NCBI RefSeq assembly: GCF_038396675.1
Contig: NC_088926.1
Coordinates: 14,434,001 to 14,498,000, forward strand
From: Hydra vulgaris
Lineage: Eukaryota > Cnidaria > Hydrozoa > Anthoathecata > Hydridae
DNA: 64,000 nucleotides
Reading direction: 5' to 3'
The notes beneath the pieces were generated by a model. That model worked only from the letters and a program-made list of their open reading frames with translations. It did not search any database and was not told where the DNA came from. Both the position numbers and the translations under genes were made by a program. Positions within the stretch are counted from its first letter, which is position 1; each line of letters begins with the position of its first letter. Positions 44,418-47,365 of this stretch are shown one piece after another.

Positions 44418-44728
44418 TTAGGGATATGACTTTTTAATTTTTTTTCAAATAAAATGTTTCCTGTATCATAAATCGATGAACTTTTACCTAAAATCATGAA
44501 AAAAGGCCCAAATAGCTTTCTGCAACAAAAAAAGGTCACCCCCAAAATAAAAATTTGATTTACCATTTTTATACATTCATTTTTGACCGATGTTTTAATC
44601 TTAAGCTTAATTCTCAGCTTAATTCTATTTATTTCATTATTTTGTTATGAATTTATAAATATAACGCCACACGTTACCATGGCAACGAAACGGCCGTGTG
44701 CCGGCAAATACTTGGAATTGTTATGTGA

Positions 44729-44829
44729 TGACGTCATTGTGTTACCACGGTGATATAGACGACTGTAACAGACTGTAGAAGATTATAGAACTTAGTAGAA
44801 CATTCTGGAAAATCTAAATAATTATATAA
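44729..44829 (+). promoter_or_regulatory. Putative promoter: CRE and TATA box of copy B
   Basis: TGACGTCA at 44729-44736 and TATATAA at 44823-44829, identical in spacing to copy A. The ATG follows at 45126 after a leader with two GACTGGATTATCGAACT words and the hairpin ACGACTTTA/TAAAGTCGT. Confidence 0.6.
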
Positions 44830-45125
44830 GCGAGCTGCTGTCAGAGCTCAGTGTTGATAATGTCAATAGTTCTATGAAGTACTCTGCGTGTAACTGAGCT
44901 AATAAGGAACTACTGTAGCGAACTAAAGACGCTGTAAGTGTACGAAGTATAAGTAGTTGTAGCATTATCGTTAGGATACGGACTGGATTATCGAACTGTT
45001 ATCAACATTGACTGGATTATCGAACTATAATTGGATTACTATACAGTTAAAGTATTTTATTAATTAAACGACTTTATTAAACGGATATTTACGCTCAACT
45101 ATCCGTAAAGTCGTAACAATATTAT

Positions 45126-46925
45126 ATGATGTCTCACAAGAAAAGTCATACCACAGTAACAAAGAACAAGAAGACTTGGACTAAAAATTTGGTGAGATTT
45201 CAAGAGTCACACAGAAGAAGAGGAAGCGTGGCTGTAGAAGAACATTCACTCGATGAAAAATCCAGAATACCACTTCAATTGCAGATCGTAGGAAGATACC
45301 AGTTTCTCGGAGCATATGTTAAAGGAAGAAAAGAACGAATAGACCAAATTTCTAAGGAAATTACAAAATTGTGGGACAATAAACTGAATTTTCCACGTGT
45401 GTCTGATCAAGTGATAAGAGCAAAGCTTATGAAGGTGCTGAAGGTCTATGATGAATGTGTCAAGCGTGGAAAATATGATGTTCTCAATGCATTATTTGAC
45501 ATCACGAAAGTGAATGGCCAGTGGTTATCCTCGGAAGATAAACGTCTATACCACCTACAAAAAGAAAGTAAAGGACAGGTGGGGTACTCAACAGGACAAG
45601 TGGCAAGTAAAGAAACCATTCACCCTTCCAAGAGAAGGAAAGTCCAGTCTGGAACAGCAATACCTTCCACATCACAAGTCCTGTCTACCACAGACAGTGG
45701 TACTGAATCTGAAAACTGCAAAAGTAAGAGTGAAGATGATGAAGACGACGACGGTGATAAAGACGATGATGAGGACACTCAGAAAAAAACTAGAAAGCAC
45801 TACAAAAGTAAATTTGCTGTAAGTATGGTTACATCAAGTGGAGTTTCCACAAAGAAAGCTGCTAAAATATGCAATGTATTATCACAACAAGGTATTGATA
45901 TTCCAACTCCAAGTCAATCAGCAATTTACAAGTCCATATTCAAAGAGGCAGGTAAATTAAAAAAAGAAATGATACAACAACTTAAAATGGAACAGTGGTC
46001 CTTACACTTTGACGGCAAACGAATAGATGATAAGGAATATCAGGTAGTTGTACTTCAGAATGAAAGAACTGACGTGAAACTTGATGCACTGCGTTTAAAA
46101 GATGGCAAAGCTGAAACTGTTGCTGAAAAAATTGCCAAACTTATTGATGAATACAATTTGTGGAATTCAATTAAGATGATCATTACTGATACAACAAACG
46201 TCAATACTGGGAAGAGAAATGGAGTTGTTGTGAAGTTGCAACGTATGTTTAAATTAAAGGGTGTCACAATACCACAATTTATCGGTTGTCAGCATCACGT
46301 ACTAGACAGGATTCTCCGTCTGGTGATGGACGAAGAACTTGGGGGTGTTACCAAATCTCCAAACATTGAATACCCATTTGTGTCTGAACTGTTGAATAAG
46401 TATGATGAACTGAAGGATAAGTTTGTGAATGGAACTGTAGAAATTCTTGATAAATCAGGGTGGAGAGACGATATGAAGTTTTTGTACCATTTAACAAGAG
46501 TGTTTAGGTTCTATGAAGAACAAAGAAAGTTCCCTCTGATTCACTTTCAGAACATTTCTAATATGAGCAATGCCAGATGGAACTCAAGAGCCATTCTCGC
46601 CATTCTGGCGTTCATTCTTATGCCTGAAGCGAGAAAGAATTTGGAGAAGGTTTGCAGGTTCATTTCATATGAGTGGGCAGAACATTGGTTTAGTAGTCAA
46701 AAGTACAATGACAATGACTTCAAGAATTTATCTGATGTATTGAAGCCTTACAAAAAGGCATTGCAGTCATTCAAAAATCACTGGAAGAAAGAGCCATCCG
46801 TCATCGACATACCACGAAGTAATCAGATAGCTGAACGTGCAATCAAGGTGATGCAAGACCTGTATGCTTCCTGCAGAAAGAAAGACAAACTGCAACTTCG
46901 ATTCATTCTAAGTAATAAGCGCTAG
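45126..46925 (+). CDS. Transposase of the TTAGGG-ended family (599 aa), intact
   Basis: Predicted nuclear transposase acting on the 18-bp ends of its own element. Residues 1-35 are Lys/Arg-rich. About 45-130 form a conserved helical domain, possibly DNA-binding. 200-218 is an Asp/Glu-rich linker. The catalytic part follows: HFDGK (Asp near 295), TDTTNVNTG (Asp near 355), GCQHHVLDRI (C-x-HH near 388), SNARWNSRA (near 482) and NQIAER (Glu near 570). The order Asp, Asp, C-x-H, Glu is that of RNase-H-fold DDE transposases such as hAT, P and Kolobok, but the surrounding text is not typical of any of these. The spliced gene at 55.5-58.1 kb shares the same motifs. Either of two adjacent ATGs could start it. 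Superfamily unassigned; confidence in transposase function is high from the flanking ends. Confidence 0.88.
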   Translation: MMSHKKSHTTVTKNKKTWTKNLVRFQESHRRRGSVAVEEHSLDEKSRIPLQLQIVGRYQFLGAYVKGRKERIDQISKEITKLWDNKLNFPRVSDQVIRAKLMKVLKVYDECVKRGKYDVLNALFDITKVNGQWLSSEDKRLYHLQKESKGQVGYSTGQVASKETIHPSKRRKVQSGTAIPSTSQVLSTTDSGTESENCKSKSEDDEDDDGDKDDDEDTQKKTRKHYKSKFAVSMVTSSGVSTKKAAKICNVLSQQGIDIPTPSQSAIYKSIFKEAGKLKKEMIQQLKMEQWSLHFDGKRIDDKEYQVVVLQNERTDVKLDALRLKDGKAETVAEKIAKLIDEYNLWNSIKMIITDTTNVNTGKRNGVVVKLQRMFKLKGVTIPQFIGCQHHVLDRILRLVMDEELGGVTKSPNIEYPFVSELLNKYDELKDKFVNGTVEILDKSGWRDDMKFLYHLTRVFRFYEEQRKFPLIHFQNISNMSNARWNSRAILAILAFILMPEARKNLEKVCRFISYEWAEHWFSSQKYNDNDFKNLSDVLKPYKKALQSFKNHWKKEPSVIDIPRSNQIAERAIKVMQDLYASCRKKDKLQLRFILSNKR

Positions 46926-47060
46926 ACTCTTTATGAGACGTGAGCATCATGTGACCCATGTACTAAACACAGTAGGCCTATAGACACAGACAGTTATGTA
47001 TATTGTTGTACTAGACGCTTTGATACTGTTAATTTTGTAATACTTGTATAATTATATATC

Positions 47061-47107
47061 ACATGTACTGTGATATAACATGTTTTTTGTTATATCACAG
47101 TACATGT
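47061..47107 (+). terminator. Perfect 20-bp hairpin in copy B 3' region
   Basis: ACATGTACTGTGATATAACA (47061-47080), a seven-base loop TGTTTTT, and the exact complement. Copy A keeps the right arm (TGTTATATCACAGTACATGT region near 10973) but lacks 14 bases of the left arm. AATAAATAAAATAA follows, a likely polyadenylation signal. The hairpin may be a processing signal or a slip product; I cannot tell which. Confidence 0.5.
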
Positions 47108-47365
47108 TGCATAAATAAATAAAATAACAACAGGAGTATGACTCTTACAACATCTTCAGCCTTTAATATTCATTTACTGTACAAAAGTGTACCTATTGAA
47201 AATTCGATTTTTTGGTTTTGGGGTGACCTTTTTTCAAAATATGTCAAAATGAAACATCTATTCGTTCTTTTTACATAAAAGTTCATTGAATTACGATACA
47301 GGCCTAGTAGGTTGCAAAAAAGTCATATCCCTAATATATATATATATATACATTTGACTTCAATA

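Follow-up and report, generated by a model that had tools for sequence, protein, structure and literature searches.

To which superfamily does a recently mobile transposon of Hydra vulgaris belong, if its transposase matches no family model and its flanks look like plain TA repeats? The window analysed here is a stretch of 64,000 nucleotides (assembly GCF_038396675.1, contig NC_088926.1, positions 14,434,001 to 14,498,000), and it contains two copies of the element, copy A and copy B (coordinates in Table 1), whose near-identity, claimed in a preliminary description, was borne out by alignment. That description left the family unassigned and considered the protein to be unlike hAT. Our analysis leads to the opposite view: the element is very probably a young autonomous cut-and-paste hAT transposon from a lineage too divergent for the Pfam hAT models. 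The assignment follows from 8-bp target-site duplications (TSDs) with the consensus nTnnnnAn, the order of transposase motifs (D-D-CxxH-RW-E), the fold match with the Hermes transposase and a profile match with hAT proteins.

The 18-bp ends starting with TTAGGG, suggested as a probe for mapping all copies, occur 470 + 474 times in the whole genome, while the reversed control does not occur at all. These ends are perfectly inverted, as described, but their length is 17 bp. In particular, the base before a perfect 17-bp end is T in 944 cases and A, C or G, most often C, in 79. As the outermost T varies at these 79 ends, we read the element as TAGGG...CCCTA and assign the outer T (A at the other end) to the target DNA.

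We examined 69 copies, that is, 68 loci of at least 3 kb (copy B among them) and copy A. Both exact 17-bp ends are present in 65 of them, and the TSD and frame counts below refer to these 65 copies. Left out were L064 and L065, where the right end was not found, and L067 and L068, whose right ends have two and one mismatches, respectively; both L067 and L068 are flanked by ATATATAT. The 65 copies comprise a similarity set of 28 (from 40 listed full-length matches to the whole element, best-scoring first), 35 copies from contigs C1 and C2, copy A and L066. The C1/C2 copies were chosen by the exact 18-mer including the outer T, so the outermost duplicated base is biased in them; flanks in the similarity set are less biased, but copies resembling copy B are favoured.

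The TSD of 8 bp is perfect in 63 of the 65 complete copies and matches at 7 of 8 positions in the other two. In 47 copies it is ATATATAT on both sides, and the remaining 16 perfect TSDs, read along the element, are ATATACAT, ATGTATAT, ATACATAT, ATGCATAT, ATGGATAT or TTCAACAT. The hAT target consensus of the Ac type, nTnnnnAn, fits all 65 copies on both sides (14.1% of window positions outside the two elements fit it). In the similarity set 27 of 28 TSDs are perfect, and ATATATAT is the target of 21 copies, compared to 1.8% of window positions outside the elements (a rough background, being one window). Thus, (AT)n arrays are strongly favoured as insertion targets, and most examined copies are inserted in TATATA runs. 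Moreover, to offset the bias of the 18-mer, 10 of the 19 ends lacking an 18-mer-matching partner were read; four of them have perfect TSDs (including GTGGTGAT and ATATACAC) and two match at 7 of 8 positions, the rest being considered below.

The TA flanks reported previously are in fact 8-bp duplications, ATATATAT at both window copies, which cannot be seen there because both copies sit in (TA)n arrays. A Tc1/mariner-type TA duplication is rejected by TSDs such as GTGGTGAT, TTCAACAT and ATGGATAT. The same observations bear on the idea of a DDE superfamily outside the named ones, inserting at TA and having the ends TTAGGG...CCCTAA. Both window copies do resemble TA insertions, but perfect 8-bp TSDs outside (TA)n are observed, the outer T or A is inconstant, and the TA-target part of this idea is refuted by GTGGTGAT and TTCAACAT; its remaining part is weighed with the transposase.

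The motifs of the transposase point to hAT. Residues D296, D355, C388, H391 and W485 are invariant in 44 sequences, and E570 is conserved in at least 90% of them. The order of motifs in hAT transposases is D, D, CxxH, RW, E, and the order in our protein agrees with it. The RNase-H fold proposed earlier agrees with the structure prediction: as in Hermes, a catalytic core of this fold is interrupted between the second D and E by a large helical insertion, which in the predicted core carries CxxH and RW. In the fold comparison Hermes stands clearly ahead of all other matches, the alignment extending to its residue 605, while the Pfam search of the query gave no PF05699 match. In profile-profile comparison (hhalign), hAT proteins with DUF4371 are matched with the probability of 65.9% (E 5.7e-5) over 143 columns.

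Several results weigh against this assignment. The query has no Pfam or NCBIfam match above the cut-off, PF05699 and BED included, and Hermes is missing from the results of a profile search in PDB sequences. The hhalign match with DUF4371 stops before E and leaves RW outside the alignment, and whole-model Foldseek TM-scores are low (0.23-0.35), perhaps due to different domain placement. Finally, among the ten irregular ends mentioned above, two have no matching TSD and two no recognisable partner end. The profile search proposed earlier as a check of novelty gave no family hit above the cut-off, and the assignment to hAT rests on structure, TSDs and profile-profile comparison. Similarly, no transposase family, PF05699 or BED is found among 25 of the 47 Pfam families listed for 44 relatives. 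These missing family matches of the query and its relatives would suit a superfamily of its own, against which stands the clear best match to Hermes, and we consider such a superfamily very improbable.

The N-terminal BED zinc finger is common in hAT transposases but not universal, and we treat it as a common rather than defining feature. Residues 1-156 (45126-45593) form a confidently predicted helical domain, in which no Cys occurs in columns conserved at 90%; no BED match is seen in the query, and neither Foldseek nor VIA-align gave a convincing PDB match for this part, which is probably DNA-binding. Since PF05699 was not detected and BED was not found, the lineage is a divergent one.

P elements also produce 8-bp TSDs, and the RNase-H fold with an insertion is common to them too, so that a P-element-like transposon has to be compared. 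Foldseek does list P-element transposase chains, with E-values near 1e-2 and TM-scores (by target length) of 0.35-0.38, but the E-value of Hermes is better by four orders of magnitude, and the Pfam search of the query gave no THAP match. The P element also has ends and motifs unlike those found here, and a P-like origin is extremely improbable.

The window also contains, in positions 56265-57239, a gene fragment with the motifs HFDGK, DTTSSNTG and CRHH, whose hhalign match to the profile of the present family (probability of 98.1%, E 8.1e-14) marks it as a second, related transposase group. The adjacent frame 57190-58077 shows no match to the profile of the present family. The present family and the FDGK/DTTxxNTG/CxxH family of this gene could together form a sister group of hAT, sharing the fold and the 8-bp stagger and lying outside the known hAT groups. 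The match between them, stronger than the one with the DUF4371 hAT proteins, and the undetected PF05699 and BED speak for it, but the TSD length and consensus, the end sequence, CxxH and RW all agree with hAT, and a divergent subgroup within hAT accounts for the same facts. We consider the sister group unlikely, though it deserves some weight, and retain the assignment to hAT.

The element is young. An alignment of 64 copies gives a median distance of 0.17% from the column majority; pairwise, the copies differ by a median of 0.41% and by 1.4% at most, and two copies are identical to the column majority. The 599-codon frame claimed for copy B is open as stated, but copy B is not special in this respect, as the same frame is open in 44 of the 65 complete copies (20 of 35 among the C1/C2 copies and 24 of 28 in the similarity set, where good copies are favoured). 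In-frame changes comprise 179 non-synonymous and 49 synonymous ones and 11 stops, a pattern that looks like neutral decay following insertion. Perfect TSDs, the low median divergence and the open frames indicate recent activity of an apparently intact element, consistent with the preliminary description.

Between copies A and B there are 13 substitutions, of which one adjoins an insertion. The single inserted base noted in copy A is an extra A at base 9767, which splits the frame. Copy B has a 14-base insertion relative to copy A (window positions 47066-47079), unique among the 69 copies examined, which mirrors the adjoining downstream sequence (GTACTGTGATATAAC, reverse complement at 47089) and forms a hairpin with it, as if templated by fold-back synthesis. 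The element is 2,901 bp long in 46 of 64 copies; both this length and the 17-bp terminal inverted repeat (TIR) are within the hAT range, given as 2.5-5 kb and 10-25 bp in PMC3942097. The motifs resembling a cAMP response element (CRE) and a TATA box, said to be shared by the copies, are present in both.

Table 1. Features of the two element copies in the window (TIR, terminal inverted repeat; TSD, target-site duplication)
Feature	Position	Strand	Basis or remark
Copy B, complete hAT element, 2,915 bp	44419..47333	+	alignment of copies
Left TSD, copy B, ATATATAT	44411..44418	.	8-bp length fixed from copies outside (TA)n
Right TSD, copy B, ATATATAT	47334..47341	.	length fixed as for left side
Left 17-bp TIR, copy B	44419..44435	+	adjoining flank base varies between copies
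Right 17-bp TIR, copy B	47317..47333	-	
Outer subterminal inverted repeat, left arm, 34 nt, 85% complementary	44460..44493	+	
Outer subterminal inverted repeat, right arm	47269..47302	-	
Inner subterminal inverted repeat, left arm, 34 nt, 82% complementary	44528..44561	+	
Inner subterminal inverted repeat, right arm	47201..47234	-	
CRE-like site (by sequence), TGACGTCA	44729..44736	+	also at 8615 in copy A
TATA-like box (by sequence), TATATAAG	44823..44830	+	also at 8709 in copy A
Transposase, 599 codons; D296, D355, C388/H391, W485, E570	45126..46925	+	
Copy A, complete hAT element, 2,902 bp, frame broken	8305..11206	+	
Left TSD, copy A, ATATATAT	8297..8304	.	
Right TSD, copy A, ATATATAT	11207..11214	.	

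These features suggest the following mechanism. The single gene encodes a transposase of 599 amino acids, with the N-terminal helical part followed by the split RNase-H-fold core. The 17-bp ends together with two 34-nt subterminal inverted repeats suggest multi-site binding, that is, the transposase may bind the ends and both repeats, the outer of which is a likely binding site. By analogy with hAT chemistry, excision would proceed via hairpins on the flanking DNA, as in Hermes. Insertion would then occur with an 8-bp stagger, shown by the duplications, at nTnnnnAn sites, preferably in (AT)n arrays.

Other mobile sequences are seen in the window. An element of about 200 bp (59050-59247) with GGGCCC-containing inverted ends (TAGGGCCCTGC...GCAGGGCCCTTA) lies within a TA array and is possibly non-autonomous and hAT-like. 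On the minus strand, positions 4201-5052 hold part of a different hAT transposase (DUF4371, with a Pfam E-value of 3.7e-20). Over 84% of its length this fragment is 95% identical to proteins of Hydra vulgaris, among them one named zinc finger MYM-type protein 1-like. Two frames on the minus strand of 40073-42399 resemble reverse transcriptase and endonuclease of a retrotransposon without long terminal repeats (non-LTR; translations judged by eye).

Among known systems, Hermes of the house fly (PDB 4d1q, 6dww, 2bw3) is a hAT transposon with TSDs of 8 bp, whose catalytic fold likewise has a helical insertion between the second D and E. The sequence identity is only 12-15%, and, unlike Hermes, the Hydra transposase has no recognisable BED finger, its N-terminal 156 residues gave no convincing PDB match, and the element strongly prefers (AT)n targets. 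The CxxH and W motifs are present in both transposases, being represented in Hermes by H268 and W319, according to PMC4763223.

The element likely belongs under hATm, a name used in Repbase and RepeatMasker, with which it is compared here by published description. The TSD given for Hydra hATm-3 is TATATATA (PMC8721813), and this is how the TSD of our element reads if its ends are set one base further out, as they were in the preliminary description. Moreover, hAT-hATm is listed among 14 putatively active transposable element families in Hydra (PMC12220107), and among the hAT classes tabulated for Caligus hATm ranks first in size (PMC7878743); in this genus relatives 48-54% identical to our transposase occur. 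Another Hydra element, hATx-6, is also a hAT with 8-bp TSDs, but it is described (PMC8721813) as having low target bias and a transposase of 674 aa that contains BED and hAT dimerisation domains; frames occur in 10 of 54 copies, each with changes that make activity unlikely. Our element has a transposase of 599 aa with no Pfam match to these domains, strong target bias and mostly open frames. Microsatellite targeting is shared with the SaTar elements of guayule and rice, which are small non-autonomous Mutator-like elements (MULEs; PMC5907723), whereas ours is an autonomous hAT and not a plant MULE.

In kind the element is ordinary, while its target choice and the absence of a family model are moderately interesting. 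The family has no Pfam model, although its relatives are present in a leech, a copepod and numerous public assemblies. Insertion into a TA array masks the 8-bp duplication and makes a hAT element resemble a TA-inserting unknown, a misclassification corrected here. With about 500 young copies (1,023 perfect ends), many open frames, the (AT)n preference and probably a laboratory host, the element is a practical subject for studying target choice by hAT transposons.
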